From Actinomycetota bacterium (GTDB taxonomy: Bacteria; Actinomycetota; Rubrobacteria; Rubrobacterales; Rubrobacteraceae): 64,000 nucleotides of DNA. Both the position numbers and the translations under genes were made by a program. How positions within the stretch are numbered: position 1 is the stretch's first letter; each line of letters opens with the position of its first letter. The stretch is from contig CADDYV010000009.1 of NCBI GenBank assembly GCA_902810695.1, positions 1 to 64,000 of the forward strand, given 5' to 3'. Under the pieces are notes generated by a model. The model had not been told where the DNA came from. It did no database searches and saw nothing but the letters and a program-made list of their open reading frames with translations. Positions 22,199-55,768 of this stretch are shown piece by piece.

Positions 22199-22202
22199 GG
22201 AT

Positions 22203-23101: not shown

Positions 23102-23108
23102 CGCCTGT

Positions 23109-24763: not shown

Positions 24764-24765
24764 GA

Positions 24766-25698: not shown

Positions 25699-25715
25699 GC
25701 GCGAAGACGGGTGAG

Positions 25716-25808
25716 ATGGATGAATTGCCGCGAAAATTTGCTGCGAAGAACCTTGCACGCCCACAAAGGGTGATCTCCAGGCTGGCGAGGGACTCGACTA
25801 CGCTGTGA
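25716..25808 (+). CDS. Possible 30-aa coupled ORF ahead of hypF
   Basis: ATG 25716 gives a 30-residue basic peptide (MDELPRKFAAKNLARPQRVI...) whose TGA overlaps the hypF GTG. The Shine-Dalgarno is weak (GGGTGAG, close). It may be a coupling leader or simply intergenic sequence. Confidence 0.3.
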   Translation: MDELPRKFAAKNLARPQRVISRLARDSTTL

Positions 25809-28132: not shown

Positions 28133-28141
28133 GAGAGAGAT

Positions 28142-37940: not shown

Positions 37941-38456
37941 TTAGCGGCGAGGGGCCTTCGCCTTTCTATCCACGCTCGCCACGATCCGCCTCACGTAACC
38001 CAGGGCCACAGGGTTGTGGTCCGAGATCCTGGGCCACCACCAGCCCCCAAGGATCTCATGGACCCACAAAAACCCTATCCCGTACCCGAATCCCAAGACC
38101 ACGTGGTATGCCAGAAAAGGCAGAATCCCTTCCGGGAAGAGAGGTCTGCTGCTAGATCCCATCGCGGTTCCGAGCGTTAGCTGATGGATCAACCTTGCGA
38201 TCGGGAACATTACCATCCAGTAGAGCACGGACGGAGCGACGCCAGCCAGACGAACCTTACCCGCCGCCAGAAGCCCGTCATAGCCCGCCCCGAAGATTGC
38301 CAGCGGGATGCCCAATCCCAGAAAATTGAGGATTACGAGCAAGGAGGACTGACCGCTAAAGGCGGCCAGCCCTCCCGCTACCAGCCCTGTACCAAGCCCG
38401 GTCGCGACTCCGGGAAGCGCCAACTCCCATGTGCTGCGCGACAGAGGAACCCGCAT
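37941..38456 (-). CDS. Hypothetical membrane protein (171 aa)
   Basis: About five hydrophobic segments, with GVATGLGTGLVAGGLAAF near the start and HVVLGFGYGIGFLWVHE late. It begins two bases after the stop of the Nramp-like gene and is therefore probably co-transcribed and functionally linked to it. No family recognised. Confidence 0.7.
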   Translation of the reverse strand: MRVPLSRSTWELALPGVATGLGTGLVAGGLAAFSGQSSLLVILNFLGLGIPLAIFGAGYDGLLAAGKVRLAGVAPSVLYWMVMFPIARLIHQLTLGTAMGSSSRPLFPEGILPFLAYHVVLGFGYGIGFLWVHEILGGWWWPRISDHNPVALGYVRRIVASVDRKAKAPRR

Positions 38457-38458
38457 CT

Positions 38459-39973
38459 TTAGCTCACCACGACTCCGAAGCGGAACAGACTGTAGAACAG
38501 CATGCCGAGGTAGAAGATCGCCCCGAGAGCCAGCACGACGCTAACCAGGAAGTGGGGCCGGATCTTCTTCGGCAAAAGCAGGTTGTTGGTGAACAGCAGG
38601 AGCACGCAGTACGCGCCCATCGCGAAGGTCGAGAGGAACGCGAGGACATCCAGGACAGCTCCCGGCCCGTCCGCCGGGCCGAACAGGAGTATCAGTATCC
38701 CGAATGCCATGACGCCGAACAGGAAGCCGAAGTAGAGCTTGCTCATGCTGAAGCGTCGCGCACCGGGTATGAAGTAGTACGTCATATCCGACTGCCCGCG
38801 CGCGAAGGCGTCGAAGATGCCGAAAGACCCTTTCCAGCCGACGATAGCGATAAAGCCCAGGTACACGATCTTCAGGAAGGTTCCGCCCACGCTATGAAAA
38901 GCGGCTGCTATGGCCGATATCGAAGCCGTCTCGTCGCCGCCTTTGATGACGCCGGCGACGTGCGGGTTGATCTGCCCGGCGGCCTGCGCGAGGATCGTGA
39001 AGACGATGGTAACCAGCATGGTTATGCCCCAGAAAAGCAGGATGGCGTCGAAGCTAACCCACCGTCTCCAGTCCTTCCACTTCCGCATCTCTTCCTGGTT
39101 CTCCGTATCGAACATGAAGCCCCGGGAAGGCATGGTCTCTTCCTCTTCATCGAGGTGCACCAGACCTTTGATACGAGGGATGTGCGCTCCCATACCGGCG
39201 CCCTTGTCCCGCAGCCAGAGCGTGTACCACATCTGCTGCATGCCCGAAGGACCAGCAAACGCGATGGAACCCACGATGATCGGGAACCACGTGGCCCCAA
39301 ACGCTACCTTGGGCATATACCCGAAGGAGACCAGGCCGTATATGGTGGCCCACAACTCGTGCCAGGTTCCCAGGACCCCGGCAACTATCACGGAGCCGAT
39401 CACCAGCAGGCCGATGAGGATCGAAAGGACCGTCTCGAGTACGTTGTAAACGTACTTCGCGAGGGTGAATATAACGCCCATCAGTATTATTCCCACGATG
39501 GCCGTGCCGAGCCAGCCGATTCCCGTTATGAACTCAAACGCTTGGGCCCCGAGCGAGATGTGCCCCGGCCAGATGTACACCAGTATGGCCACGGCGAAGA
39601 AGAACCACATGAAGGGTTTGGCTATGCGTGCGGCGCCGAAGAAGATGCTCTCCCCGGTAGCCATCGCATAGCGCGCCATCTCCAGCATCACGACCGCCTG
39701 CAGCGAGACCCCGATCAAAAACAGCCAGCGGATCTGGGGTCCGAAGACCAAGACGAGCCGTGGCCACATAAACGTCTCGCCGAGCCCGACTCCCAGCGCC
39801 ACCAGAACCATGGCGGGACCGATAATATGCAGCGCCACCGGAGCCTCGGGAAGCTCCCGGATCGGCATCGGCTCCCCTCTACCAGAGTCCCAAACCTTCT
39901 CTTCTACCTGCTCAGTAACCTGTTGAGCGCTACCTCCGGGGTTATCCTCGGAGCCCCTGGGTCTAGTTGCCAC
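38459..39973 (-). CDS. Nramp-like transporter lacking the canonical metal motif
   Basis: 504 aa, GTG start with GGGAGG upstream, about 11 membrane segments in the LeuT-type pattern. The segment GPAMVLVALGVGLGETFMWP occupies TM1, where metal-transporting Nramp proteins have Asp-Pro-Gly-Asn; here the DPGN is replaced by a GLGET sequence. TM6 also lacks the usual MPH. The family placement (Nramp/APC superfamily) is from overall layout. The cargo may not be Mn/Fe. It is directly downstream of the 2-oxoacid oxidoreductase operon on the same strand, separated by a hairpin and a small leader ORF. Confidence 0.75.
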   Translation of the reverse strand: MATRPRGSEDNPGGSAQQVTEQVEEKVWDSGRGEPMPIRELPEAPVALHIIGPAMVLVALGVGLGETFMWPRLVLVFGPQIRWLFLIGVSLQAVVMLEMARYAMATGESIFFGAARIAKPFMWFFFAVAILVYIWPGHISLGAQAFEFITGIGWLGTAIVGIILMGVIFTLAKYVYNVLETVLSILIGLLVIGSVIVAGVLGTWHELWATIYGLVSFGYMPKVAFGATWFPIIVGSIAFAGPSGMQQMWYTLWLRDKGAGMGAHIPRIKGLVHLDEEEETMPSRGFMFDTENQEEMRKWKDWRRWVSFDAILLFWGITMLVTIVFTILAQAAGQINPHVAGVIKGGDETASISAIAAAFHSVGGTFLKIVYLGFIAIVGWKGSFGIFDAFARGQSDMTYYFIPGARRFSMSKLYFGFLFGVMAFGILILLFGPADGPGAVLDVLAFLSTFAMGAYCVLLLFTNNLLLPKKIRPHFLVSVVLALGAIFYLGMLFYSLFRFGVVVS

Positions 39974-40247: not shown

Positions 40248-41435
40248 CTACTGGCCCATCGAGGGCAGTGCGTTTGGATACTCGTCCAGCTCGTTGTCAT
40301 CTCGCCACGGCTCGTTTGGCATGTCGGAGACGCCTTCGTGCTCCTCGTGGGCGTGCCCCGGTTCTCCGATCCACGAGGCGTTCTCCCGCTTCACATTGTT
40401 GTTCCGAACCTTCGGCTCTTCGGTGGTTATGTTTATGGGACCGCCGTAGCTGAAGGCGACGACGCACGGGATGATCCACTGCTCCCACATCTCGTCCACC
40501 TTCTTCTGGAAGTACGCGTAGTCCTGGTTCTTGAAGTGGGCGAAGCGTCCCTGCTTCTCCAGGTACTCCCGGACCGGCTTGCGACGCCTGCCCAGAGCAA
40601 GCTGCTTGGTCTTGCCGGTGAAGTTCAGCACGCCGTCTTTGATCTCATAGAGCGGGTATATGCCGGTCTCGATGGCGAGCTTCCCAAGCTCGGTGGAGTG
40701 CTCCGGGTCGTAGTGCCAGCCTTTGGGGCAGGGATCTAGCACGTGCATGTAGGTCGGTCCGCCCGCGCTCAGGGCCGCCCGCACCTTGTCCATCATGTCT
40801 ACCGGGACCGCCGGGGTCCCCGAGGCTATGTATCTGGTATCGGGATGGCCGGCGGCCAGCATGCCGGGGACGTTCTTCTTCCACCGGCGCTGCATGATGC
40901 GGTGCTTCTTGCCCGGAGGACTGAAGGTAGTGACCGCGCCCCACGGAGTCTGGCCGGAGGTCTGGATGTCGGTGTTGGCGTAGCTCTCGTTGTCGTAGAG
41001 GAAGATCAGGAGGTTGTACTCTATGTCGGTGAGCGCCGCACTGATCGCCGAAAGACCCATGTCTGCGCCCCCGCCATCGCCGCAGAAGGCGATCACGTTG
41101 ATCGGCTCGTCCTTCATCTTCCCCTTGCGCATGAGCGACTTGAGCCCGGCGGCGGTTCCGATCGCCGAGGAGCCCGCCGCGCCGAGCTGGGTATGCATCC
41201 AGGGCACGACCCAGGGCGTGGACATGTAGGTGGTGTTCGCCACGTACATACATCCGGTGGTGCCGAGCACGATGGTCCGCGGTCCCGCCGCCTTCGCCAT
41301 CAACCTCATAGGCAGGGAGGACAGGCAACCCTGGCAGGTGCGGTGTCCCGACTCGAAATATTCTTCCTTCGGTGCTTTCTTTATGGATTTGATCGGTTCG
41401 AGCTTGAGCGCCCGTCCGGGTGCCTCGGTGGTCAC
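40248..41435 (-). CDS. 2-oxoacid:ferredoxin oxidoreductase beta subunit (oxalate oxidoreductase-like)
   Basis: 395 aa. TPP-binding domain: CGDGGGADMGLSAISAALT with Mg2+-binding GDG, then DNESYANTDIQTSGQTPWGA (the second Mg/TPP segment). Cluster cysteines: CQGCLSS near residue 35, TTGCMY and DPCPKGW. An extended C-terminal tail of about 90 residues (EEPKVRNNNVKRENASW onward) has no motif I know. It is the last gene of the three-gene minus-strand operon, 39 bases after the alpha subunit. The beta subunit does not by itself decide between pyruvate and oxalate; see the alpha subunit. Confidence 0.9.
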   Translation of the reverse strand: MTTEAPGRALKLEPIKSIKKAPKEEYFESGHRTCQGCLSSLPMRLMAKAAGPRTIVLGTTGCMYVANTTYMSTPWVVPWMHTQLGAAGSSAIGTAAGLKSLMRKGKMKDEPINVIAFCGDGGGADMGLSAISAALTDIEYNLLIFLYDNESYANTDIQTSGQTPWGAVTTFSPPGKKHRIMQRRWKKNVPGMLAAGHPDTRYIASGTPAVPVDMMDKVRAALSAGGPTYMHVLDPCPKGWHYDPEHSTELGKLAIETGIYPLYEIKDGVLNFTGKTKQLALGRRRKPVREYLEKQGRFAHFKNQDYAYFQKKVDEMWEQWIIPCVVAFSYGGPINITTEEPKVRNNNVKRENASWIGEPGHAHEEHEGVSDMPNEPWRDDNELDEYPNALPSMGQ

Positions 41436-41474
41436 TGCGACCTCCTTCCTCTGTCGCGATACTCGCTCATGTGT

Positions 41475-42689
41475 CTACTCGCGCACGCCGATCCAACTGA
41501 CGGTAGGAACCGTCTCTCCAGCGGCGGCACGCTTCGTGATGTAGGCCATCTCGTCCATCATCTCCGGAGTCAGCTCCCGACCGCCGAGACCGCCGATGAA
41601 GTTCACCACGCGGGGCCTGCGTTCGGCATCATAAAGCGCCGCCCGCAGGTCGGTGAACAGCACCCCACCATGCTGCGGCGAGCCGTAGGCGTAGTCGCGA
41701 TCCACGACGCCCACGGCCCTGAAGCGCCCCAGCACCTCCGCCAACTCCTCGTCGGGGAACGGCCTGAACCACTTGAGCCGGACGAAGCCGACCTTCTCGC
41801 CGCGATCTCGCAGCCTGCGCACCATAACCTTGGCCGGAAGCCCCAGCGAGCCCATCCCGAACAGCACGTACTCCGCATCCTCGGTCATATACTCTTCGAA
41901 GAACGGGTTGTCTCCGCCGCGCCCGAACAGCCTCCTGAAATCGTCGTGCGCCTCGCGGATGACGCCCTTGACCCTCTTCGCGGCATCGTCGGTCTGCTTG
42001 CGGATCTCCATGACCCAGTCCTCGTTCGCCTGGGGCGCTATGCTGATGGGGTTATCCGGGTGGAGCAGCCGTTCGCCGAGGTCGTACGGCGGCAAGAACT
42101 CGTTTACCGTCTCCTGATCCGGGATCTTGATGAGCGTCTGGGAGTGGGTGATGAACGCGCCGTCCACGCCGAGCCCCACCGGGAGAAAGACCCTCTTGTC
42201 CTCGCCGACGCGGTAGGCCATGAGCGTCGCGTCGAAGCACTCCTGCGCATCCTCGACCCAGAAGAGCAGCCAGCCGAGGTCGCGCACGGCCATCGCGTCG
42301 TTGTGCTCGACCCCGAACGCGCCCGGGTCGTCCAGGGCGCGGTTGCCTATCATGGCCACGACCGGCAGACGGAGCGAAGGGGTAACCGCGTTGGACTCCA
42401 TGGCGTACATCCACCCCACGCCCGAGGAACCCACGAACACCCGGCTGCCCACCGCCGAAGCGTGCTTGCAGATCTCGAACTGGGAGTGCTCGCTCTCCGC
42501 AACGATATACTCGGCGTCGAGTTCGCCGTCGGCGATAAGCTTCGCCACAGCCTGCATCACCCCGTCGTAGGGCCGGATGGGATACGCCGCCATCACGTCC
42601 ACATCCGCCAGTTTCACCGCCTGGGCGACCGCCTGCGTGCCGGTCGTCAGCTTCTCGGTTTGCCGCCCGAGTGGCTTCGAGATGGTCAC
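41475..42689 (-). CDS. 2-oxoacid:ferredoxin oxidoreductase alpha subunit with oxalate-type active-site motifs
   Basis: 404 aa. Pyruvate enzymes have YPITP near the N-terminus; this protein has AAYPIRPYDG with Arg39. It also has IGNRALDDPGAFGVEHND with Arg117 and Asp120. From memory, Moorella oxalate oxidoreductase uses Arg31, Arg109 and Asp112; all three match here with a constant offset of eight residues. The reaction would be oxalate to 2 CO2 with two low-potential electrons to ferredoxin, without CoA. C-terminal GMGSLGLPAKVMVRRLRDRG is the usual domain II. If the motif reading is wrong, it is a pyruvate or other 2-oxoacid enzyme. Confidence 0.85.
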   Translation of the reverse strand: MTISKPLGRQTEKLTTGTQAVAQAVKLADVDVMAAYPIRPYDGVMQAVAKLIADGELDAEYIVAESEHSQFEICKHASAVGSRVFVGSSGVGWMYAMESNAVTPSLRLPVVAMIGNRALDDPGAFGVEHNDAMAVRDLGWLLFWVEDAQECFDATLMAYRVGEDKRVFLPVGLGVDGAFITHSQTLIKIPDQETVNEFLPPYDLGERLLHPDNPISIAPQANEDWVMEIRKQTDDAAKRVKGVIREAHDDFRRLFGRGGDNPFFEEYMTEDAEYVLFGMGSLGLPAKVMVRRLRDRGEKVGFVRLKWFRPFPDEELAEVLGRFRAVGVVDRDYAYGSPQHGGVLFTDLRAALYDAERRPRVVNFIGGLGGRELTPEMMDEMAYITKRAAAGETVPTVSWIGVRE

Positions 42690-42752
42690 CGCGTCTCGCC
42701 TCCCCTTCCCAAAACTTCTCGCATTGCTCTACTCCCTCGTCTCAGTAGCCGG

Positions 42753-43955
42753 CTAGCTCGTACGGTCTGCTTGCTTGCCTCCCGACCACGCCCAGGTGTC
42801 GGCGTTGAAGTAGTCGTGATGCTCTATCCTGCCGTTCGCTATCTTCTCTTCGCGCCACCGGTGGTAGGCTTCCTTGTCTTCCTTCCACATCGGGAAGACA
42901 TCTTCGTTGCCTTCCTCGATAAATTCGAGGTCGTTGACCATCACGATGCAGTCCTCGACCGGGCAGACCTGGGCGCAGATGCCGCACCCGGTGCAGTAGT
43001 CGTAGTTAACGGGGTGAAATCCCTCTTCGGTGATGTCGAAGCACTCATCGGGGCAGTCGAGCCAGCACTGGCGGCACTTGATGCAGGTGTCGAAGTTGAC
43101 CACCGGGCGCATGGTCCGATCGGAAGAGGTTTTGTAGTCCGGGTTGCGCTCGCCCAGCTTGCGGGCCTCGACGATGATGCCTTCCCGCATCTCCTTGTAC
43201 CCCGGCAGCCTGACCGGCTCGTAGTCGTCCTCTTTGCCCACGCCGGCGGCGACCTCGTGGATCACCACTTCCTCGTAGCCATCTCTGAGCGCCGCGAGGT
43301 GCTCTTCGCCGAGCTTCTCGTCCTCGTTTACCACGCTCTCTACCGCGCTGAACTCGAAGATGTCCGGGCGCGTACGCGCTATGGCGCCGAGCACCCGCAT
43401 GTCCGTGCCGTCGTCGCGATATACCCAGAGCCCGCCCAGGCTCGGCGTTCCGGGAAGGATCGCCAGCGTCCAGTCCCAGGGCTTGCGCGGGATCACCTTC
43501 AATAGCTCCTCGGCGGATCTGTTCGAGATAACCAGTAGCGTTCCGCCGCGCCGGAGACGCAAATTGATCGGCTGCCGGCCGTAGAAAGCCCAGGACTCGA
43601 CCCCGTCGCACAATGTGTCGTCGAGGACCGTGATCACATCCAGCTCGTTCGGCTCGTACTTGGCCATGTGCTCCTGAAGCCGCATCTCGTCCGGGGCGAT
43701 CACCGCGAACTGCTTCGCCGGAACACCGTTGCGCTCCGGCGAGTCGCCATAGCGCTGGATCGTCGAGCCCAGCCAGTCCCGCTTGCGGGCGGCCATGACC
43801 ACGTGCTTGCAGAGGTTCGCCGCGAGCGTCTTCTGGTAGATCCCCCGGTAGGTGAACTCCACGCTCTTGGCTTCCTCGCGAACCTCAGTGGAGCTTCGGC
43901 CTGCAGCGGAGTCCTGCGCGACGGGCGGCGTGTTGGCTTCAGTGCCAGACGACAT
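42753..43955 (-). CDS. 2-oxoacid:ferredoxin oxidoreductase fused gamma-delta subunit
   Basis: 400 aa from ATG 43955 with AAGGAGAGAGG upstream (the open frame to 44051 runs through the operator). The gamma part (about 35-270) has AANLCKHVVMAARKRDWLG and DVITVLDDTLCDGVESW; the delta part holds two [4Fe-4S] ferredoxin motifs, CIKCRQCWLDCPDECFD and CTGCGICAQVCPVEDC. Gamma-delta fusion as first gene, then alpha and beta, is the arrangement I recall for the Moorella oxalate enzyme. First gene after the promoter at 44030-44058. Confidence 0.88.
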   Translation of the reverse strand: MSSGTEANTPPVAQDSAAGRSSTEVREEAKSVEFTYRGIYQKTLAANLCKHVVMAARKRDWLGSTIQRYGDSPERNGVPAKQFAVIAPDEMRLQEHMAKYEPNELDVITVLDDTLCDGVESWAFYGRQPINLRLRRGGTLLVISNRSAEELLKVIPRKPWDWTLAILPGTPSLGGLWVYRDDGTDMRVLGAIARTRPDIFEFSAVESVVNEDEKLGEEHLAALRDGYEEVVIHEVAAGVGKEDDYEPVRLPGYKEMREGIIVEARKLGERNPDYKTSSDRTMRPVVNFDTCIKCRQCWLDCPDECFDITEEGFHPVNYDYCTGCGICAQVCPVEDCIVMVNDLEFIEEGNEDVFPMWKEDKEAYHRWREEKIANGRIEHHDYFNADTWAWSGGKQADRTS

Positions 43956-44175: not shown

Positions 44176-44736
44176 TCACTGTCTGCGCTCCTTCTCTGGA
44201 AGGTTGTGATCGCTTTGGGACTGGTGGATCTGTATGAGGTGGCGTTCTACGAGTTCAAAGAGTTTGCCTTCCAGAGCGCGCTGCTGATCAGCCGCTTCCG
44301 AGAGTTGCTGGCTTGTCTTCTCAAGCGAGGAAAATTCGATCTCCCCGAAAATCTTCTCGCGGCGTTCGAGCAGGTCCTGGAGTTCGTCGAAAAGCCGGTC
44401 TCTGTGCTCCTGGCAGATGTAGCGTTCGAGTCGCCTGAATATAAGATCTTCCAGTTCCCGGCGCTGCCTCAAAAGATCGAACACGTCGCGGAGATATCGC
44501 TCCCGCTCGCGCTGAAACTGCAGTTCGCGCTCCAGTCCTTCCATGAGGAGATTCTGATCCAACTGTTCAAACGGTCGTTGGGCCTCTTCGGTGATCTGCT
44601 CCATCCGTGCTCTATTGCGGCGGCGCCTCTCGCCCTCGAAGAGCCTCTCCTGCCAGCCGAGCACCCGTCCGAGTTCATCGAGAAGGCGGGTTAACTCCTG
44701 CTCGTGTTCCTCTAGCTCCCGTATTTTGTCGGCCAC
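44176..44736 (-). CDS. Hypothetical coiled-coil protein
   Basis: 186 aa from GTG 44736 with AGGGAGA upstream. Almost entirely charged helix (RELEEHEQELTRLLDELGRVL; LERYICQEHRDRLFDELQDLLERREKIF), so a long coiled coil is likely. A 177-codon frame on the opposite strand is its antisense shadow: it lacks a ribosome site and is the leucine/phenylalanine complement of these codons. Function unknown. Confidence 0.65.
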   Translation of the reverse strand: MADKIRELEEHEQELTRLLDELGRVLGWQERLFEGERRRRNRARMEQITEEAQRPFEQLDQNLLMEGLERELQFQRERERYLRDVFDLLRQRRELEDLIFRRLERYICQEHRDRLFDELQDLLERREKIFGEIEFSSLEKTSQQLSEAADQQRALEGKLFELVERHLIQIHQSQSDHNLPEKERRQ

Positions 44737-44773: not shown

Positions 44774-45262
44774 CTAAACGCGCTGGTTTTCCTGCAATGA
44801 CGGCGGGTGGGGAGGAGCCGCGAGCGGCTCGCACGGGATCGGGAAGACCACGACCGGGCAATCCGAAGAGGCCATTACCTTGTGCGTGGTGGAGGTCGGG
44901 CGGAAGCGGTGCATGAAACCTTTTCCTCGCCGGCCCAGCACCACGAGATCAAAGCCCACTTCCTTGATATGGCTCAGGATGGCTTTCGCGGGATCCCCCT
45001 TCATCAACTCGACCGACTTGGGTTCGATGCCCAGATCCCTCGCCGTGCACCGGGCTTGATCGCAGAACTCTTCGAAGTCTCCGTCGGCCACGGCTTTCGG
45101 TAGTTCCACTTCCTGCGCTACGACCTGTAACGCCGGTGGATACTCTTGCACGCAGAGAACGTGCAACTCGGCCTCTAGCATGAGGGCCAGCCTGGCCGCC
45201 TGCTTAAGCACCTCATTGCACGCTCTGGACTCGTCTATTGCCACCAGGATTCTGCCGTACAT
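44774..45262 (-). CDS. Universal stress protein (UspA family)
   Basis: 162 aa. ILVAIDESRACNEVLKQAARLA is the family opening, and VVLGRRGKGFMHRFRPTSTTHKVMASSDCPVVV the C-terminal region; the ATP loop is not a perfect G-2x-G-9x-G(S/T). Cytoplasmic stress or energy-status protein. The 250 bases between its start and the glycerate-kinase stop (45263-45512) hold only an AT-rich patch around 45385-45400 that may contain its promoter. Confidence 0.88.
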   Translation of the reverse strand: MYGRILVAIDESRACNEVLKQAARLALMLEAELHVLCVQEYPPALQVVAQEVELPKAVADGDFEEFCDQARCTARDLGIEPKSVELMKGDPAKAILSHIKEVGFDLVVLGRRGKGFMHRFRPTSTTHKVMASSDCPVVVFPIPCEPLAAPPHPPSLQENQRV

Positions 45263-45512: not shown

Positions 45513-46853
45513 TCAGGCTTCGGGTCGTCTGCGCTTTCTGCCGACCAGAGCTATACGCAGGTCGTTGACGTTGGTTCCCGTGGGTCCGGTAACGAGTAGA
45601 GCATCTCCTGCTTTGAGGGCCGTGTAGGCGTCGTTTTTTCTCAGGGCTTCGGTGGGGTCCACGCCGTTTTCGCGGATGGACCGGGCGGTCGAGCCGGTTA
45701 CTATCCCGCCTGCGGCGTCGGTCGGGCCGTCGTTGCCGTCGGTATCGGCGGAGAGGGCCGCCCAGTTCTCTACGCCTGCTAGCTCCACCGCCAGCGCCAG
45801 GGCGAACTCCTGGTTGGGGCCGCCGAGCCCGTCGCCGCGTACCGTAACCGTAGCCTCGCCGCCGCTCACGAGGGCGCATGGCGGAGGGATGGGATTGCCG
45901 GTCTCCAGAACCTCTCGGATTATGGCCGCGTATACCGAGGCCGCGCCCCTCGCGTCTCCTGTGATGGTCGTGGAGAGCAGCATCGGTTCGTAGCCCAACT
46001 GCCGGGCTTTGGCCGCTGCGGCCTCGGATGAAAGCCGCCCGCCGCCGCAGATAATGTGCGTAACCCTCTCGAAGATGGAATCTCCGGGCTTGGGGGTTTC
46101 CGGACCATTTTCCAGGCGTTCGGAGATGCTTCGCGGCGGGTCTATGGCGTAGCGTTTCAACACGTCTCTCGCGTCTTCGAGGGTTGTGGGATCCGGGGCG
46201 GTGAGGCCGCTGGCTATCGCCGAGGGGTCGTCGCCGACCACGTCGGAGAGGAGCAGGGCTAGGGTGCGCGCGGGAGCGGCCCGGCGGACGAGGCCGCCGC
46301 CCTTGAGAGTGGAGATGTGCTTGCGGACGGTGTTGATGTCGCCTATCGAAGCCCCGCTTTTGAGCAGCGCTCCGGTGAGTTGTTTCAGGTCGGAGAGGCT
46401 TATCGGCGGGACCGGGTCCGCGAGCAGTGCCGAGGCTCCACCAGATATCAGGGCCAGGAGGAGATCCCCTGCCTCAAGCGAGTCCACAAGCTCCTCTACG
46501 CACCGGGCGACCTCGACGCCGCGCTCGTCGGGCTCCGGGTGAGAAGCGAACAGCGTCTTGAACTGCTCCGGGCCCGGCCGGTGGCCTTCTTTGGTGATCA
46601 CCAGCCCGCCGGAGACTCTATCCCTGAGCAGCTCCCCGGCGGCAGTTGCCATCGCACCGGCAGCTTTGCCCGCGGCGAGCACGAAGACTCGCTCCGCCTC
46701 GAAACTGAAGATAGCCTCACCCTCGCAGCGCAGAGCCCGCAAAACAGCGCGTCCGGGATCGGCGGCCTCAAGCCCGGCGGCGAAGATATCCCTCAAATCC
46801 TCCTTCACAGGGACATTGTAATGTCCGGGCGGACTTTCATGCACGACAGGCAC
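45513..46853 (-). CDS. Glycerate 2-kinase (MOFRL/DUF4147 family)
   Basis: 446 aa. FVLAAGKAAGAMATAAGELL at the N-terminus, LISGGASALLADP, the INTVRKHISTLKGGGL segment and the C-terminal CALVSGGEATVTVRGDGLGG (MOFRL motif) are all characteristic. It phosphorylates D-glycerate to 2-phosphoglycerate, taking glyoxylate- or tartronate-derived glycerate into glycolysis. Divergent from the glycolate oxidase genes with 224 bases between, which fits joint control of C2/C3 acid use. The GTG at 46853 is the furthest start; a later GTG at the VKEDL position is possible. Confidence 0.9.
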   Translation of the reverse strand: MPVVHESPPGHYNVPVKEDLRDIFAAGLEAADPGRAVLRALRCEGEAIFSFEAERVFVLAAGKAAGAMATAAGELLRDRVSGGLVITKEGHRPGPEQFKTLFASHPEPDERGVEVARCVEELVDSLEAGDLLLALISGGASALLADPVPPISLSDLKQLTGALLKSGASIGDINTVRKHISTLKGGGLVRRAAPARTLALLLSDVVGDDPSAIASGLTAPDPTTLEDARDVLKRYAIDPPRSISERLENGPETPKPGDSIFERVTHIICGGGRLSSEAAAAKARQLGYEPMLLSTTITGDARGAASVYAAIIREVLETGNPIPPPCALVSGGEATVTVRGDGLGGPNQEFALALAVELAGVENWAALSADTDGNDGPTDAAGGIVTGSTARSIRENGVDPTEALRKNDAYTALKAGDALLVTGPTGTNVNDLRIALVGRKRRRPEA

Positions 46854-47077: not shown

Positions 47078-48532
47078 GTGGAGCGCACACAGCTTATAAG
47101 CACGATGGAGTCCATCCTCGGGCCGGAGGGTGTGATCCACGAGCGAGAGCAGCTACGCACCTACGAATGCGACGGCCTGATGAACTACCGGGTCATCCCG
47201 GACCTCGTCGTCTTACCCGAGAGTGCCGGGCAGGTGCAGCAGATCGTGAGGGTCTGCTACGAGGAGGGGATACCCTTCGTCGCCCGCGGCTCGGGGACCG
47301 GGCTCTCGGGCGGGGCCTTACCTGTAGAGTCGGGCATACTCATCGTGCTCGCCCGGATGCGAAGGATCCTCGATGTGGACATACCGAACCAGAGGGTTAC
47401 CGTGGAGCCGGGCGTGGTCAACCTGTGGGTCACCCAGGAGGTGGCGAGCGAGGGATACTTCTACGCCCCCGACCCTTCGAGCCAGCTCGTCTCCTCCATC
47501 GGCGGCAACTTCGCGGAGAACTCCGGCGGGGTCCACTGCCTGAAGTACGGCTTCACGACGAACCACGTGACGGGGGCCGAAGTGGTGCTGCCGGATGGGT
47601 CCGTGGCGCACATCGGCGGCGGCAAAGCCCCCGACGAGCCGGGCTACGACCTGCTCGGCGCGTTCGTCGGCTCCGAGGGAACTTTAGGGATAGCCACCAA
47701 GATCACACTGCGCATAGTCCGCACGCCGGAGTCGGTGAGGACGCTTATAGCGGCCTTCGAGGACACGGAGAAGGCGGGCGGGGCGGTCTCGGGGATCATC
47801 GGTAGCGGGTGCGTCCCGGCGGGCATCGAGATGATGGACTCCCTGACGCTCGAAGCGGTAGAAGAAGCGGTGCATCCGCACTACCCGGAGTGCGGGGCGC
47901 TCCTTCTGGTGGAGCTCGACGGCCCGGAGGCCGAGGTCGAAAACCAGTTCGAGCAGGTGATAAAGATCTGCGAGGAGAACGGGTCTTCCGAGATCCGGGT
48001 AGCCAAAGACGATGCCGAGAGGGCGCTCTTCTGGAAGGGGCGCAAGGCGGCATTCGGGGCGATGGGCCGAATCGCGAACGACTACTACGTCCAGGACGGC
48101 GTAATCCCGCGCACCGAACTCCCGGCGGTGTTGAAGAAGATCAGCGACCTCAGCGCGGAGTACGGCCTGCGCGTGGCGAACGTCTTCCACGCCGGGGATG
48201 GCAACCTGCACCCGCTGGTCCTCTACGATAACAACAATGAAGGCGAGGCGGAGAGGGCGGAGGAGCTGGCCGGAGAGATCATCCGCGCCTGCCTGGAGCA
48301 CGGCGGCTCGCTGACCGGCGAGCACGGCATCGGCGAGGACAAGAAGAAGTACATGCCGGATATGTTCACCGCGGACGATCTGAACGTCATGCAGCTTCTG
48401 CGGTGCGCTTTCGACCCGCACCACCTCTGCAACCCCGGCAAGGTCTTCCCGACCCCGCGGCTGTGCGCCGAACGCCCGGGGCCGTTCAGGGTGCACCCGC
48501 TGCAAGAGGCCGGCCTCGCGGAGATGTTCTGA
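47078..48532 (+). CDS. glcD: Glycolate oxidase, FAD-linked subunit GlcD
   Basis: 484 aa, GTG start after GGGAAGGGAGCTAG. The FAD-binding PCMH domain shows PFVARGSGTGLSGGALP and the SIGGNFAENSGGVHCLKYG segment, and the C-terminal half ends with HAGDGNLHPLVLYD and GEHGIGEDKKKYM, the substrate and flavin side typical of GlcD/D-lactate dehydrogenases. It oxidises glycolate (or D-lactate) to glyoxylate (pyruvate). Stop and glcE start overlap (TGATG). Confidence 0.93.
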   Translation: MERTQLISTMESILGPEGVIHEREQLRTYECDGLMNYRVIPDLVVLPESAGQVQQIVRVCYEEGIPFVARGSGTGLSGGALPVESGILIVLARMRRILDVDIPNQRVTVEPGVVNLWVTQEVASEGYFYAPDPSSQLVSSIGGNFAENSGGVHCLKYGFTTNHVTGAEVVLPDGSVAHIGGGKAPDEPGYDLLGAFVGSEGTLGIATKITLRIVRTPESVRTLIAAFEDTEKAGGAVSGIIGSGCVPAGIEMMDSLTLEAVEEAVHPHYPECGALLLVELDGPEAEVENQFEQVIKICEENGSSEIRVAKDDAERALFWKGRKAAFGAMGRIANDYYVQDGVIPRTELPAVLKKISDLSAEYGLRVANVFHAGDGNLHPLVLYDNNNEGEAERAEELAGEIIRACLEHGGSLTGEHGIGEDKKKYMPDMFTADDLNVMQLLRCAFDPHHLCNPGKVFPTPRLCAERPGPFRVHPLQEAGLAEMF

Positions 48533-49791
48533 TGCAGACCGCGAACGTCTCCCTGGAGGACCTGCAGGGCATAGTAGGAGAAGAACACGCCCGCGAAGCC
48601 GCTCCCGAAGACGCGGTAGACGGCGCGACGCCCTCGTTCGTCGCCGAACCCGGCTCGGTGGAGGAGATCGCAGGGCTATTGAAGCTCGCGAGTGGGGCGG
48701 GGCTCGCGGTCGCGCCGCGCGGTGGGGGGACGAAGATGCACCTCGGAAATCCCCCTCGGAATCTGGACCTCATCGTGAGCACCGCCAGGATGAACGGGGT
48801 GCTGGAGCACGCCGCGCCGGATCAGGTACTGCGGGTGCAGGCCGGGATCGGGCTCGAAGGGTTGCAGGAGCGGCTCTCCGCCTCGAACCAGATGCTCGCG
48901 ATAGACCCGCCGGAGCGCGGAGCCACCGTGGGCGGTGTGGTGGCGACGAACGCCTCCGGCCCGCTGCGGCTCAGGTACGGCACCATCCGGGACCTCATCA
49001 TCGGAATCACGGTCGTTCTCCCGGACGGCACGGTGGCGAAGGCCGGAGGCAAGGTCGTAAAGAACGTCGCCGGTTACGACCTCGGCAAGCTGTTCACCGG
49101 GTCTCTGGGAACTCTGGGGATCATCGCGGAGGCCAACTTCCGGCTGCACCCGATACCGGAGGTCGCCAAAACCGTCGTGGTCGAGCTGGAGAGCCAGCAG
49201 GGTGCTGCGGAAGCAGCACAGGCCATCATGCACTCCCAGATCGTGCCGAGTGCGGTGGAGTTGCGCTGGGGTCCCAGCGGGAAGAGACTCGCGGTACTCG
49301 TCGAGAGCATCCCCGGCGGTATCGGGGCGAAGGCGGAGACGGCGGCTTTCCTGCTCAAGCCTTTTGGGGAGGTCCACACTGAGGACGGCAGAGCCGAGAT
49401 TTTGCGCTTACCGGAGGCTGGAGAAAATGAGACCATCGTCAAGATCACGGCTCCCCCGGCGGAGCTTGCGGGCGTTCTGGAGTCGGTCTCCAGGGCGGCG
49501 GAGCGCAGAGGTTTAGAGGTCAGGATGTGGGGTCATGCCGCGAGCGGTGTAACGTTTGCGGGGCTCTCCGGCGGAGGCGTCGAGGCTCTGGCCGACTTTG
49601 TCGGGGAGATGCGTGAGATCCGGGCGAGAAGAGGAGGAAGCGTTACCTTGCAGAGAGCTTCCGTGGAGTTGAAGCGGAGAGCGGGCGCGTGGGGCTACGG
49701 CGGGGACGCCCTGGGGCTCATGCGCCGGGTGAAGGAGAAGTTCGACCCATCGGGGACGATGAACCCCGGCAGGTTCGTAGGAGGTATCTAG
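48532..49791 (+). CDS. glcE: Glycolate oxidase FAD-binding subunit GlcE
   Basis: 419 aa from ATG 48532. A second, shorter PCMH flavoprotein: VAPRGGGTKMHLGNPP, GGVVATNASGPLRLRYG, VVKNVAGYDLGKLFTGSLGTLG. The substrate-binding C-terminal HAGDGN of GlcD is missing, as in GlcE. It is coupled to glcD and glcF by overlapping start/stop codons, consistent with a three-subunit membrane-associated complex. Confidence 0.93.
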   Translation: MQTANVSLEDLQGIVGEEHAREAAPEDAVDGATPSFVAEPGSVEEIAGLLKLASGAGLAVAPRGGGTKMHLGNPPRNLDLIVSTARMNGVLEHAAPDQVLRVQAGIGLEGLQERLSASNQMLAIDPPERGATVGGVVATNASGPLRLRYGTIRDLIIGITVVLPDGTVAKAGGKVVKNVAGYDLGKLFTGSLGTLGIIAEANFRLHPIPEVAKTVVVELESQQGAAEAAQAIMHSQIVPSAVELRWGPSGKRLAVLVESIPGGIGAKAETAAFLLKPFGEVHTEDGRAEILRLPEAGENETIVKITAPPAELAGVLESVSRAAERRGLEVRMWGHAASGVTFAGLSGGGVEALADFVGEMREIRARRGGSVTLQRASVELKRRAGAWGYGGDALGLMRRVKEKFDPSGTMNPGRFVGGI

Positions 49792-51254
49792 TGACCGAGC
49801 GGCGGAACGGCGAGGGCCTACCGCAGGATAAGGCGATGACCAACTCCATCGGCGCGGGGAGCCCGGAGGATGTGGGCCAGGGTGTCGGCGAGGCGAGCGA
49901 GCTGGCGGAGGAGGCGACCGTCGGTGCAGGGCGCAGGGAGAGCGGCAAAACGAGCTTTCCGGCCTTCGACACCCACCACCCGCCCGACAAGGCGCTCATA
50001 GACGAGTGCGTCCACTGCGGGTTCTGTCTGCCGACCTGCCCGACGTATGTGCTCTTCGGCGAGGAGATGGACTCCCCGCGCGGGCGTATCTACCTCATGA
50101 ACAAGGGGCTCGAAGAGGAACCGTTGAACGACCAGATGGTCCGGCACTTCGATTTGTGTCTGGGGTGCATGGCGTGCGTGACGGCGTGTCCGGCGGGGGT
50201 GCAGTACGAAAAGCTCATCGAGGCGACCCGCGCGCAGGTCGAGCGCCGCTACGAGAGATCGCCGGAGGACAAAGCCTTCCGGGAGATGATCTTCAACCTC
50301 TTCCCCTACCCGAACCGGCTGCGTCTCGCCGCCGCTCCCATGAAGCTATACCAGCGGTTCGGTATCGGGAGCAGGCTCCGCAAGGCCGGCATCATGGACC
50401 GGCTGCCGGCGCGGGTACGGGCGATGGAGGCTCTCTTGCCGGAAGTTCCCAAGGAGGAGAAGATCCCGGAGACGACGCCGCCCGCAGGAGAGAAGCGCAG
50501 GCGCGTCGGGATACTCACCGGCTGCGTGCAGCGGGTTTTCTTCTCCAGGGTAAACGCGGCGACCGTCCGCGTGCTCGCCGCCGAGGGATGCGAAGTCGTA
50601 GCCCCTGCAGGCCAGGGCTGCTGCGGCGCTCTCTCGACCCACGCCGGGCGCGAGGAGGAGTCCCTGAACTTTGCCCGCAAGACGATAGATACCTTCGAGG
50701 AGTACGATTTGGATAACGTCATCGTCAACGCTGCCGGTTGCGGCTCGACGATGAAGGAGTACGGACATCTCCTGCGCGACGACCCCGAGTATGCGGAGAG
50801 AGCTAAAGAATTCTCCGCGAAGGTGAAGGACGTTACGGAGTTCTTACAGGAACTGGGCCCTGTGGCCGAGCGGCACCCGCTGCCCGTCTCGGTTGCCTAC
50901 CATGACGCCTGCCACCTGGCTCACGCCCAGGGCATCAGAAGCCAGCCCCGGCAGAGCTTGAAACAGATACCGGGGATGGACGTGCGTGAGATAAGGGAGG
51001 CGGAGATCTGCTGCGGTTCGGCGGGGATCTACAACATGGTCGAGCCCGAGGCGGCTTCGGAGCTTGGCGAGCGCAAGGCGAAGAACGTTCTCGCCGCCGG
51101 AGCGCAGATGCTCGTTACCGCCAACCCCGGCTGCACGCTCCAGATCCGGGCTTCCCTGAAGAAGCTGGGCCAGGATATGCCGATGGCTCACCCTGTAGAG
51201 GTCGTAGACGCCTCGCTGCGCGGCGAGCCGGTAGAGACGCTGCTACAGCGTTAG
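49791..51254 (+). CDS. glcF: Glycolate oxidase iron-sulfur subunit GlcF
   Basis: 487 aa from GTG 49791 overlapping the glcE stop. An unusual hydrophilic N-terminal extension of about 55 residues precedes two [4Fe-4S] motifs (CVHCGFCLPTCPTY and CLGCMACVTACPAG). Two CCG domains follow (CCGALSTHAGREEE, NAAGCGSTMKEYG; HLAHAQGIR, ICCGSAGIYNM, NPGCTLQI). It passes electrons from GlcD/E to the quinone pool. Confidence 0.93.
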   Translation: MTERRNGEGLPQDKAMTNSIGAGSPEDVGQGVGEASELAEEATVGAGRRESGKTSFPAFDTHHPPDKALIDECVHCGFCLPTCPTYVLFGEEMDSPRGRIYLMNKGLEEEPLNDQMVRHFDLCLGCMACVTACPAGVQYEKLIEATRAQVERRYERSPEDKAFREMIFNLFPYPNRLRLAAAPMKLYQRFGIGSRLRKAGIMDRLPARVRAMEALLPEVPKEEKIPETTPPAGEKRRRVGILTGCVQRVFFSRVNAATVRVLAAEGCEVVAPAGQGCCGALSTHAGREEESLNFARKTIDTFEEYDLDNVIVNAAGCGSTMKEYGHLLRDDPEYAERAKEFSAKVKDVTEFLQELGPVAERHPLPVSVAYHDACHLAHAQGIRSQPRQSLKQIPGMDVREIREAEICCGSAGIYNMVEPEAASELGERKAKNVLAAGAQMLVTANPGCTLQIRASLKKLGQDMPMAHPVEVVDASLRGEPVETLLQR

Positions 51255-51260: not shown

Positions 51261-52175
51261 ATGAGAGCTACCCGCTCCCTTCTCGCGGTTCCCGGATCCA
51301 ACCTCAAGATGGTGGAGAAGGCGCTCTCCTCGAAGGCTGATGCCGTATTCCTCGATCTCGAAGACGCCGTAGCTCCGGGCGAGAAAGCCGCGGCCCGGGG
51401 GAGCGTCATCCGGGCGATAAACGAGTTCGACTGGGGCAGCAGGAGCAGGCTCTACCGGATGAACGCCCTGGACACGCCGTACTTCTACCGGGATGTGATC
51501 GAGATCGCCGAGGAAGCGGGGGAGATGCTGGATGCGATCCTGATTCCCAAGGTACAGAGTGCCGGGGATCTACACACCCTCGACAAGCTTCTTTCGAGCA
51601 TAGAGATCAACGCCGGTCTCGAACCCGGCAAGATAAGGCTCGAAGCCCAGATAGAGAGCGCCGGAGGGCTCGCCAGCATAGACGGTATAGCCCGCGCGAG
51701 CAGCCGTCTCGAAGCCTTCCACTTCGGACCCGGAGACTTCGCCGCGAGCCTCCGGATGCCGGGCGGCAACATCGGCGTCTCCGACGAGTGGGATGAGGCA
51801 TATCCCGGACACCGCTTCCACTACGCCATGCAGCGCATCGTGGTTGCCGCGCGCGCCGCGGGCCTGCGCGTCCTGGACGGGCCGGTAGCAGATTACCGGG
51901 ATGAGGAGGCTCTGCGCGAGAGCTGCAAGATCGCCCGCTCTCTGGGCTACGACGGCAAGTGGTGCATCCATCCGGCCCAGATCGAGACCGTCAACGAGGT
52001 CTTCTCCCCCACCGAAAAAGAGGTCGAGTGGGCCAGGAAGGTGGTCTCCGCCTACGAGGAGGCGAGCGCCGCCGGTACGGGATCCATAAGCGTTGATGGG
52101 CAAATGGTAGATAACGCCTCGATAAAGATGGCCCGGAACACCCTGGATATCGCCCGGATAGCCGGGATGCTCTAA
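51261..52175 (+). CDS. HpcH/HpaI-family CoA ester lyase (malyl-CoA lyase-like)
   Basis: 304 aa. RSLLAVPGSNLKMVEKALSS, FLDLEDAVAPGEK (Mg-binding acidic), a RLEAQIESAGGL segment (Glu), HFGPGDFAASL (Asp) and GKWCIHPAQIETVN are the citrate-lyase-beta/malyl-CoA/citramalyl-CoA lyase motifs. Next to glcDEF it could join glyoxylate with acetyl- or propionyl-CoA, providing an exit for glyoxylate. It follows glcF by six bases. Confidence 0.88.
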   Translation: MRATRSLLAVPGSNLKMVEKALSSKADAVFLDLEDAVAPGEKAAARGSVIRAINEFDWGSRSRLYRMNALDTPYFYRDVIEIAEEAGEMLDAILIPKVQSAGDLHTLDKLLSSIEINAGLEPGKIRLEAQIESAGGLASIDGIARASSRLEAFHFGPGDFAASLRMPGGNIGVSDEWDEAYPGHRFHYAMQRIVVAARAAGLRVLDGPVADYRDEEALRESCKIARSLGYDGKWCIHPAQIETVNEVFSPTEKEVEWARKVVSAYEEASAAGTGSISVDGQMVDNASIKMARNTLDIARIAGML

Positions 52176-52290
52176 ACAGGTAACCAATTGAATTAGTGCT
52201 GCTGATCCAGCTATTTCTGTCTACCTGCTTAAGCGGCGAGCCTCTATCCACCAGAAAAATCGGCCAGAGGAGCGTATACAGCAACTAGAG

Positions 52291-52326
52291 TTGCGAATTA
52301 GCTTCATACGTGGCATACTTATGAGA
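52291..52326 (+). promoter_or_regulatory. Promoter of a leaderless IclR transcript
   Basis: TTGCGA (52291-52296) and CATACT (52314-52319) have a 17-base spacer. Six bases separate the -10 from the ATG at 52326, so the mRNA would begin at the start codon. There is no Shine-Dalgarno. Confidence 0.6.
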
Positions 52327-53135
52327 TGGGTGAAAGGGAAAAGAACCTTCGAAAGGAACTCGCCGTGTTGATGGTACTCGGCCGCGAGGAGGCGGTCGAG
52401 GACGGTGGTTTGGGGGTAGTACGGATCGCCCAACTCGTCGGGCGGGAGAAGACCCAGATCTCGCGGGCCTTGAAAACGCTTGCCGAGAGCGGGTTTGTCG
52501 AGCGGGATCCGGCGACGCTCCGTTACCGCCTTGGCTGGAGACTCTTCACGCTGGCGGCTCATGCTGGTGAGCAGAGGCTGCTCAGCGTCGCTCCTCCACT
52601 GCTCAAGCGGCTGGTGAAGAACCTAGGGGAGACGGCTCACCTGTCTGTCCTCCAGCGCACCGAGGTTCTGACGGTACTCTCTGAGTCCCCGCCTCATGTC
52701 GTACAGGCAGCGGGTTGGACCGGACGGACGGTTCCTGCCTACTGCACCTCGTCCGGTCGAGCACTTCTGTTCGACCACGACTATGATGTGCTCTCCGAGC
52801 TCCTCTCCGGCGTGGAATTTCGCAAACTGGGACCCAACGCGGTCCAAGATGTCGAGGAATTGTACGAGAGGATCGTTGACGCGCGTACCCGAGGGTATGC
52901 GCTTGTGGATGAGGAGTCCGAGCCCGGCCTGGTCGCCGCGGCGGCGCCGGTTCGGGATTTTAAAGGTCGGATAGTCGCGGCGCTCAACGTCTCGGCGCCG
53001 AAGTTCCGTCTCGGCGGGCGTCTGGAAGACGCCGGGCAAGAAGTCAAGAATACTGCGGACGAACTCTCCACTTCACTTGGCTTCTCTCCTGATCCCCGGC
53101 CAGGCGTTGTTGATTCCTCTGAACCAGGAGGATAG
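52326..53135 (+). CDS. IclR-family transcriptional regulator
   Basis: 269 aa. The N-terminal helix-turn-helix (GVVRIAQLVGREKTQISRALKTLAESGFVERD) is followed by the IclR effector domain (ETAHLSVLQRTEVLTVL, VPAYCTSSGRALL, RGYALVDEESEPGLVAAAAPVRD). Its stop directly abuts the transporter permease start at 53136, so it is co-transcribed and presumably autoregulates the betaine uptake operon. The ligand is unknown. Confidence 0.9.
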   Translation: MGEREKNLRKELAVLMVLGREEAVEDGGLGVVRIAQLVGREKTQISRALKTLAESGFVERDPATLRYRLGWRLFTLAAHAGEQRLLSVAPPLLKRLVKNLGETAHLSVLQRTEVLTVLSESPPHVVQAAGWTGRTVPAYCTSSGRALLFDHDYDVLSELLSGVEFRKLGPNAVQDVEELYERIVDARTRGYALVDEESEPGLVAAAAPVRDFKGRIVAALNVSAPKFRLGGRLEDAGQEVKNTADELSTSLGFSPDPRPGVVDSSEPGG

Positions 53136-53783
53136 ATGAGCTTTTTTCAATACCTGTCCGTCAACCGGGAGTACATCCTCGGGCTGGCCATCGGGCACGC
53201 CGTGGTCGTGGCCATATCGTTAGCCATCGCCATCGTGATCGCGGTGTCGGTAGGCGTGCTGGTGTACCGCACGGAGCGTGCGGCCAACATAGTGCTCGCG
53301 ATAGCCTCGACCTTCCTGACCATTCCATCCTTTGCCCTGTTCGGCCTCTTTATACCGATCTTCGGTCTCGGGTACGAGCCGACGATCGTCGCGCTGGTGT
53401 TCTACGGGCTCTTGCCGATCTTGCGGAACACGGTTACCGGCTTGCACTCCGTGGACCCTGCGATCGTGGAGTCGGCGCAGGGGATGGGGATGGGTGCCTT
53501 CCGACGGCTCGTGCGCATCGAGATGCCCCTGGCGTGGCCGGTCATCATCGCCGGTGTGCGCGTCTCCACCATGCTCTTGATGGGTATCGCGGCGATAGCC
53601 GCCGTCGTGAGCGGCCCGGGCCTGGGCAACGACATCTTCGACGGGCTCTCCCGCATCGGTGGCGCCGGCGCCCTGTACCAGGTGCTCGACGGCACGCTCG
53701 GCGTCGTCGTGCTGGCGTTGATATTCGACACGTTCTTCAACCTCTTGAGCAGGCTTACGACTCCGCGAGGTATCCGTGACTGA
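53136..53783 (+). CDS. opuCB: Betaine/choline-type ABC transporter permease (OpuCB-like)
   Basis: 215 aa, about five membrane spans. The coupling loop GLHSVDPAIVESAQGMGMGAFRRLVRIEMPLAWPVIIAGVR contains the EAA-type motif. Together with the next three genes it forms a complete OpuC-type importer for glycine betaine, choline, carnitine or related quaternary amines, with an ATP-driven import across the cytoplasmic membrane. It overlaps the ATPase gene by eight bases. Confidence 0.9.
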   Translation: MSFFQYLSVNREYILGLAIGHAVVVAISLAIAIVIAVSVGVLVYRTERAANIVLAIASTFLTIPSFALFGLFIPIFGLGYEPTIVALVFYGLLPILRNTVTGLHSVDPAIVESAQGMGMGAFRRLVRIEMPLAWPVIIAGVRVSTMLLMGIAAIAAVVSGPGLGNDIFDGLSRIGGAGALYQVLDGTLGVVVLALIFDTFFNLLSRLTTPRGIRD

Positions 53784-54960
53784 GAGAGTTACTACTAGAC
53801 AGAACAGAGCTAGCAATAAGACCATGATCCGCCTAGAGAATCTTACCAAGGTCTTTCCGGGCCAGGACGAACCGGCGGTAGATAACCTCTCGATGGATAT
53901 CTACGAGGGTGATATCGTCATCCTCGTAGGTCAATCGGGGTGCGGCAAGACCACGACGATGAAGATGATCAACCGCCTCATCGAACCTTCCAGCGGGAGG
54001 ATTTTCCTGGAAGGTGAAGACGTGACCAGAGTCAATCCGGACGCTTTGAGGCGTCGGATGGGCTATGTGATCCAGCAGATAGGGCTCTTCCCCCACATGA
54101 CCATCGCCGACAACATCGCCACGGTACCCAGGATGCTGGGCTGGGATAAGAAACGCATCTCGGACCGGGTAGACGAGTTGCTGGAGATGGTGGGCATAGA
54201 CCTCTCCTACCGGAACCGTTACCCGAAGGAGCTCTCCGGTGGCCAGCGCCAGCGGGTTGGGGTGGCGCGGGCGATGGCCGCCGACCCGCCAGTAATGTTG
54301 ATGGATGAGCCGTTCGGGGCGATAGACCCTATCACCCGCGAGAGGCTGCAAGACGAGTTTTTGAGGCTCCAGCGGGAGATAAAGAAAACCATCGTCTTCG
54401 TTACCCATGATATAGACGAAGCTATAAAGATGGGTGACCGCATCGCCATCTTGGGCGACCACGCCAGGATCGCCCAGTACGACACCCCCGAAAAGATACT
54501 GACCGATCCCGCAAACGAGTTCGTCGAGAACTTCGTCGGGGCCGGCGCTTCGATCAAGCGCCTCAGCCTCAGCCGGGTTTCGGATATCGAGACGGCTGAC
54601 TGGCCGGTCGCCAGGCTCTCAGACAGCCCCGAAAAGGCACACTCCCTAATGCGAAGCTCCGGCAAGGATTACGTGCTGCTGCTCGACGACCGGGATCGCC
54701 CCAGACGGTGGGTCAGCATGGAAGACCTCAAGCAAGACGGCATCTCACTCGAGAAAGCCGGCTGGCCGGCGGTAGCCATCGTCGAGAGAAACGCGAGCCT
54801 GTACCACACCCTCGATGTCATGATCACCTCCTACAAGGGCTCGGCGATCGTCGTCGACGATAATGGTCGCTACCAGGGCGTGGTGGATTTCGACACGGTC
54901 CTGGAGGCCATCAACGCCATGCGTCCCTCACAAACGGAGCAAGCGCATGAAGAGCCGTAG
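53776..54960 (+). CDS. opuCA: Betaine-type ABC transporter ATP-binding protein with CBS domains (OpuCA-like)
   Basis: 394 aa. Walker A GQSGCGKTTTMKMI, ABC signature LSGGQRQRVGVARA, Walker B PVMLMDEPFGAIDP and the switch His in VTHDIDEA make up the NBD (about 15-260). The C-terminal region (about 265-385) holds a CBS pair (VLLLDDRDRPRRWVSMEDL; GSAIVVDDNGRYQGVVDFDTV), the ionic-strength or nucleotide sensor known in OpuA/OpuC. GTG 53776 has GAGG upstream; the ATG at 53824 lacks a ribosome site. Confidence 0.93.
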   Translation: MTERVTTRQNRASNKTMIRLENLTKVFPGQDEPAVDNLSMDIYEGDIVILVGQSGCGKTTTMKMINRLIEPSSGRIFLEGEDVTRVNPDALRRRMGYVIQQIGLFPHMTIADNIATVPRMLGWDKKRISDRVDELLEMVGIDLSYRNRYPKELSGGQRQRVGVARAMAADPPVMLMDEPFGAIDPITRERLQDEFLRLQREIKKTIVFVTHDIDEAIKMGDRIAILGDHARIAQYDTPEKILTDPANEFVENFVGAGASIKRLSLSRVSDIETADWPVARLSDSPEKAHSLMRSSGKDYVLLLDDRDRPRRWVSMEDLKQDGISLEKAGWPAVAIVERNASLYHTLDVMITSYKGSAIVVDDNGRYQGVVDFDTVLEAINAMRPSQTEQAHEEP

Positions 54961-54990
54961 GCGAATCTCACTAGACAGAGGTTTCCGACG

Positions 54991-55752: not shown

Positions 55753-55768
55753 TACCCAAGGAGGAAAA

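Follow-up and report, generated by a model that had tools for sequence, protein, structure and literature searches.

A predicted oxalate:ferredoxin oxidoreductase operon of Rubrobacteraceae in a divergent sister branch of the Moorella enzyme

The oxalate oxidoreductase (OOR) of Moorella thermoacetica is the closest described system to the one reported here. Arg31 of its "unique YPIRP motif" and Asp116 serve a bait-and-switch mechanism (PMC5020499). We analysed a stretch of 64,000 nucleotides from a Rubrobacteraceae genome (Actinomycetota; assembly GCA_902810695.1, contig CADDYV010000009.1, positions 1 to 64,000), referred to below as the window. It carries a minus-strand operon with the gene order γδ-α-β at 40248-43955, whose three open reading frames (ORFs) are present as an earlier interpretation made from the letters of the DNA (the sequence-only reading) had described them. 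The operon probably encodes a thiamine pyrophosphate (TPP)- and [4Fe-4S]-dependent oxalate:ferredoxin oxidoreductase. By sequence comparison it belongs to a distinct, divergent sister subfamily of Moorella OOR and is not the Moorella enzyme itself. The host genome (3.59 Mb in 148 contigs) is 98% complete, and its nearest named relatives are metagenome-assembled genomes (MAGs) of Rubrobacteraceae with 85-92% α identity.

Subunits, active-site residues and phylogeny

All three subunits have their best PDB match in Moorella OOR: 5c4i_B (OOR delta chain, E 2e-18) for γδ, 5c4i_A (E 2.8e-105) for α and 5c4i_C (E 9.2e-90) for β. These E-values exclude a chance resemblance to OOR. The AlphaFold model of α (pLDDT 85.4, pTM 0.89) shows 5c4i as the top fold match with a TM-score of 0.88-0.90. 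The delta part of γδ contains two CxxCxxCxxxC motifs (residues 291 and 321), and Cys34, Cys37, Cys62 and Cys236 of β align with Cys residues of the OOR β chain, consistent with the three clusters of OOR. β reads NTDIQTS (Asp156) where its OOR counterpart reads NTGIQTS, and its C-terminal extension exceeds that of most of the branch defined below (branch median 346 amino acids, aa). The genes are separated by 63 bases (γδ-α) and 39 bases (α-β), and an alternative upstream TTG start of γδ at 44051 is also open. Promoter and terminator scans found nothing above shuffled sequences that would delimit the transcript. A 920-codon frame opposite the operon (40743-43505, plus strand) was judged to be a shadow ORF of high-GC DNA, given the clear homologs of the genes on the minus strand. 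The NCBIfam OOR equivalog scores are 395 bits for α (cut-off 500), 354 bits for β (cut-off 590) and 107 bits for γδ (OxalOxreddelta, cut-off 230). Because these scores fall below the cut-offs, the enzyme was filed as an OOR variant and not as a Moorella-type OOR.

Alignment places Arg39, Arg117 and Asp120 of α at Moorella Arg31, Arg109 and Asp112 with a constant offset of eight, in agreement with the sequence-only reading, and Phe125 at Phe117. In the same loop Asp121 is found for Pro113 and Ala124 for Asp116. The α residues of 88 branch sequences were compared with those of four canonical OORs and 21 pyruvate:ferredoxin oxidoreductases (PFORs). Sixteen residues, including R39, Y41, D120, G123 and F125, are fixed in the branch and OOR and absent from the 21 PFORs. 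An Arg109 equivalent is present in all PFORs compared and is not diagnostic, and the earlier argument from it was dropped; Arg39 and Asp120 are diagnostic. Nineteen α positions, two of them in the substrate loop, show a fixed difference between the branch and canonical OOR. Residues 118-126 of the α model have pLDDT values below 50, and the switch loop is probably mobile in this model.

When 84,980 species genomes were searched with conserved stretches of the α alignment, at least 366 relatives came up, and the best 80 of them were analysed further. RALDDPGAFG is present in all 80 kept α sequences, and the Arg31 and Asp112 equivalents are common to the 80 loci. The loop RTLDPPGDFG is found in Moorella OOR, in two Actinomycetota proteins (L010 and L011) and in the second α of locus L088. 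Maximum-likelihood trees resolve three clean groups: the branch, canonical OOR and PFOR. The branch is sister to OOR, outside the clade that contains Moorella OOR and apart from the PFORs, and each group has support of 100/99 in a 38-row tree built without the two motif regions. It does not fall among pyruvate or 2-oxoglutarate enzymes, the placement that the sequence-only reading had named as evidence against an oxalate enzyme.

Nearly all of the 80 loci long enough to show gene order have γδ-α-β. By MAG label, where labels on single contigs may reflect binning errors, the branch occurs in about 10 phyla, mostly in soil and marine MAGs: Actinomycetota, Chloroflexota (with SAR202), Acidobacteriota, Myxococcota, Armatimonadota/ANGP1, Rokubacteria, Pseudomonadota, Bipolaricaulota, Bacillota and Nitrososphaerota. 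Occurrence outside acetogens, pointed out earlier for this operon, was therefore understated. A plasmid search for relatives returned only ordinary PFORs. We found no earlier description of the branch in openly licensed literature on oxalate in Rubrobacter, Rokubacteria, SAR202 and Acidobacteria, which is weak evidence; the branch is apparently large and undescribed.

Table 1. Coordinates of the operon, its motifs and nearby genes in the window
Feature	Position	Strand	Remarks
γδ subunit	42753-43955	-	400 aa; gamma domain with a fused 2x[4Fe-4S] ferredoxin domain
α subunit	41475-42689	-	404 aa; substrate-binding domains I-II
YPIRPY motif, α 36-41	42567-42584	-	Arg39 equals OOR Arg31; Thr in PFORs
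RALDDPGAF switch loop, α 117-125	42315-42341	-	Invariant in the branch
β subunit	40248-41435	-	395 aa; TPP- and proximal [4Fe-4S]-binding
Nramp-fold permease	38459-39973	-	Next after β; NF037982, 394.8 bits; candidate oxalate importer
171-aa protein	37941-38456	-	No NCBIfam match; kept after the permease in Rubrobacteraceae
186-aa protein	44176-44736	-	Before γδ; no Pfam match; kept in complete genomes G011 and G041
Universal stress protein	44774-45262	-	PF00582; first in the run and conserved across Rubrobacteraceae
Glycerate 2-kinase family (DUF4147/MOFRL)	45513-46853	-	Context only; not beside the operon in relatives
glcD, glcE-like and glcF glycolate oxidase genes	47078-51254	+	Second and third starts provisional; context only

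Transporters and other genes beside the operon

In 40 of 66 loci the gene directly upstream of the operon encodes a GntR/FCD regulator. In 16 of 64 the first neighbour on the same strand is an OxlT-type transporter of the major facilitator superfamily. When both sides and strands were counted, 23 loci had an OxlT-like gene no more than 800 bp from the operon (113 kb searched); the remaining 819 kb of flanks contained none. The printed p-value for this adjacency is inflated by kinship among the loci; the neighbours span Acidobacteriota, Myxococcota and others. The best PDB match of the OxlT-type neighbour is OxlT 8hpj. Three of the five OxlT-like neighbours scored passed the TIGR04259 equivalog cut-off of 335 bits with 481-514 bits (L064 481, L071 513, L061 514), and those of L082, L105 and L142 are under it. 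At the columns of OxlT Arg272 and Lys355, which we take to be the oxalate-binding residues, R and K are present in every neighbour sequence covering both. The OxlT adjacency provides independent support for oxalate as the substrate. Other loci carry tripartite carboxylate transporters (TctC/TctA) beside the operon.

Several loci show further gene arrangements. In six Dehalococcoidia/SAR202 loci (L081, L094, L095, L097, L103 and L111), a flavin mononucleotide (FMN)-dependent hydroxyacid oxidase is located about 700 bp downstream of β, and a double CaiB coenzyme A (CoA)-transferase and an acetolactate-synthase-like TPP enzyme are located upstream on the other strand. Locus L088 (positions 1972-11261, Candidatus Sulfotelmatobacter, Acidobacterium) encodes two OOR-type enzymes in one run. 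It starts with GntR and the window-type γδ, α and β and continues with gamma, a GltA-like NAD(P)/delta fusion, and α and β of canonical type. The two enzymes are predicted to use different electron acceptors. In two Actinomycetota loci (L144:2190-8529 and L145:3661-11856), canonical-motif OOR α and β are accompanied by a 620-aa GltA-like NAD(P)-binding/delta-ferredoxin fusion. Both operons adjoin TctA/TctC, and L144 also has an FMN hydroxyacid oxidase; these complexes are predicted to be NAD(P)-linked OORs.

Within Rubrobacteraceae the operon is present in 8 of 39 genomes; in the window the gene that follows it is the Nramp-fold permease. A permease ortholog was found in 7 of 8 operon-positive genomes versus 1 of 31 operon-negative genomes (Fisher p ~4e-6, kinship ignored). 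The seven orthologs are 69-87% identical to the window gene, and the permease is downstream of the operon wherever both share one contig. The lone ortholog in the operon-negative group is a fragment at a contig end (G354); the others have only paralogs of about 30% identity. The eighth carrier (G087) has an OFA-family transporter in place of the permease, with OxlT as its best PDB match and the Arg and Lys kept. Such a replacement suggests equivalent roles for the permease and OxlT, and we infer that the neighbouring permease imports oxalate.

That the permease is an ordinary metal transporter beside the operon by chance appears doubtful. Both the fold and the generic NCBIfam label are Nramp. 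A sequence search found no solved relative of the permease; in Foldseek, Nramp structures top the list at 15-16% identity (model pLDDT 69). Yet the DPGN and MPH metal-binding motifs are absent from the permease alignment, with GLGET and AGPSGMQQMW at the corresponding stretches. The co-occurrence with the operon and the replacement in G087 also speak against a chance neighbour. The universal stress protein upstream and the 171-aa protein plus TerC downstream are conserved in several Rubrobacteraceae genomes, and in G011 and G041 a BhcA-like glyoxylate aminotransferase gene separates β from the permease.

Substrate, mechanism and alternatives

Homology, active-site residues, phylogeny and transporter context together make oxalate the likely substrate. 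A second, canonical-motif OOR operon in tandem in L088 agrees with this assignment, as does the lack of an oxalyl-CoA decarboxylase (Oxc) above cut-off in the host genome. Oxalate would enter the active site between α and β, where Arg39 and Arg117 of α would hold it and TPP on β would attack. One CO2 would leave, the TPP-bound carboxylate would be oxidised in two one-electron steps via the three [4Fe-4S] clusters, and the second CO2 would be released without CoA. By analogy to OOR, we expect CoA independence and ferredoxin as the acceptor. With Asp116 replaced by Ala and Pro113 by Asp, the charge switch must come about in another way; that Asp121 takes this role is a guess. The Asp116-free loop offers a natural test of the bait-and-switch mechanism.

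Several observations weigh against oxalate. The equivalent of Asp116 is Ala in every branch member, and all three subunits of the window score under the NCBIfam OOR cut-offs. The two OOR-type enzymes in one operon of L088 could mean different substrates, and the FMN hydroxyacid oxidases near some members also fit glyoxylate. OxlT exchanges oxalate for formate. The predicted enzyme should not produce formate, so a neighbouring OxlT would have to operate differently, such as by proton symport or with another counter-ion. The call of an oxalate enzyme made in the sequence-only reading gains from the sister position and the OxlT adjacency, with the qualification that the subfamily is divergent; that reading had overlooked the Ala in place of Asp116.

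One alternative concerns physiology and is compatible with the same enzyme chemistry: oxalate would be oxidised in order to remove intracellular oxalate derived from over-oxidation of glycolate or glyoxylate, and the permeases would serve otherwise. We consider this unlikely. The window contains glycolate oxidase genes and a glycerate kinase gene, glyoxylate carboligase is above cut-off in the genome, and FMN hydroxyacid oxidases adjoin the Dehalococcoidia members. The glycolate oxidase genes noted in the earlier reading are indeed nearby, but they are divergent from the operon, about 3 kb upstream and outside it. They and the glycerate kinase gene were dropped as operon members, not being beside the operon in G011, G041, G087 and G098. 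Glyoxylate carboligase, glycolate oxidase and glycerate 2-kinase outline a path from glycolate to glycerate that is distinct from the operon. The recurrence of OxlT, tripartite carboxylate transporters or the Nramp-fold permease beside the operon also argues against a purely internal source of oxalate.

Less likely still, the branch acts on another small 2-oxoacid, most plausibly glyoxylate or mesoxalate, with oxalate as a poor or side substrate. With glyoxylate the products would be CO2 and formate or formyl-CoA, and the Asp116-to-Ala and Pro113-to-Asp changes would mark a specificity switch. Such a switch is consistent with the 19 α positions at which the branch differs invariably from canonical OOR (two of them within the substrate loop), with the genes for FMN hydroxyacid oxidases and for a protein resembling glyoxylate aminotransferase beside some members, and with both enzyme types in the one L088 operon. 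On the other hand, Arg39, Asp120 and Phe125 are kept, glyoxylate needs no second Arg, and the recurrent neighbours are OxlT-type transporters. A pyruvate or other 2-oxoacid:ferredoxin oxidoreductase (OFOR) with a convergent YPIRP motif is highly improbable: the superfamily is the same, the second-best PDB match is Methanosarcina acetivorans PFOR and this is the only OFOR α in the genome by the profile used, but the motif-free tree splits the branch from all PFORs (100/99), the residues around the substrate agree with OOR and not PFOR, and YPITP is absent; PFOR identity was rejected.

The preferred reading, an oxalate:ferredoxin oxidoreductase, was set in an apparently aerobic host by the sequence-only reading. 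A CydA (cytochrome bd oxidase) match of 458.6 bits is present in the host genome, and full-length CydA in four of five Rubrobacteraceae tested. A COX1 (PF00115) search gave no match in this and nine other Rubrobacteraceae, either a search artefact or a real absence. Rubrobacter is aerobic in lifestyle. Because the COX1 search was negative, oxygen use is supported by CydA and this lifestyle. The host genome has no OxlT above cut-off. Elsewhere in the window, 17334-28420 carries the genes for both subunits of a [NiFe] hydrogenase, small and large, together with hypB, hypF and a gene resembling hypC. At 51261-56731, after glcF, come a gene resembling CitE/malyl-CoA lyase and then a set of ABC transporter genes of the glycine-betaine type.

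Significance and comparison with known systems

Oxalate accumulates in soil far less than its supply from plants and fungi. The spread of the branch suggests a widespread oxalate-consuming route missed by current surveys. We tentatively propose that a second OOR subfamily with an Asp116-free loop may act as a major oxalate sink that has gone unrecognised in aerobic prokaryotes of soil and sea. Its oxalate would be supplied through OxlT or, among Rubrobacteraceae, through an Nramp-fold permease carrying oxalate instead of metal. A 2023 survey of oxalotrophy covered oxc, frc, oxdC and oxlT only, and the possible new oxalotrophs it named include Acidobacteria, Deltaproteobacteria and Chloroflexi (PMC10192776). 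The branch is present in those groups, in several cases beside oxlT, and is thus a candidate enzyme for them. If true, cells that respire oxygen would gain a source of low-potential electrons from an oxalate enzyme that reduces ferredoxin.

Type II/III oxalotrophy (Frc/Oxc, OxlT; PMC10192776) likewise places OxlT-type transport beside an oxalate-degrading enzyme. It differs in that the host genome has no Oxc above cut-off and the proposed reaction is a direct redox cleavage without oxalyl-CoA. PFORs (M. acetivorans 9bt4, Moorella 6cin) share the OFOR fold and cofactor chemistry, whereas they have YPITP, use CoA, lack Asp112 and the GxF loop and form a separate clade. The canonical-motif OOR homologues with a GltA-like NAD(P) fusion (L010/L011 and L088b) belong to the YPIRPY clade with the same α and β folds and are also found beside carboxylate transporters or FMN hydroxyacid oxidase. 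In contrast to the window enzyme, they keep RTLDPPGDFG and are predicted to carry out NAD(P)-linked transfer via the fused subunit rather than ferredoxin-only transfer. Moorella OOR (5c4i/5exd/5exe) is the most similar: it shares the fused γδ with α and β, 47% α identity, three [4Fe-4S] clusters by ligand conservation, the TPP motif, YPIRPY and the Arg31, Arg109, Asp112 and Phe117 equivalents. The window enzyme differs from it in its sister-branch position, in Ala for Asp116 and Asp for Pro113, in β NTDIQ versus NTGIQ and in longer γδ and β tails, and its branch is found in other organisms with other neighbours (OxlT, the Nramp-fold permease and the GntR regulator).

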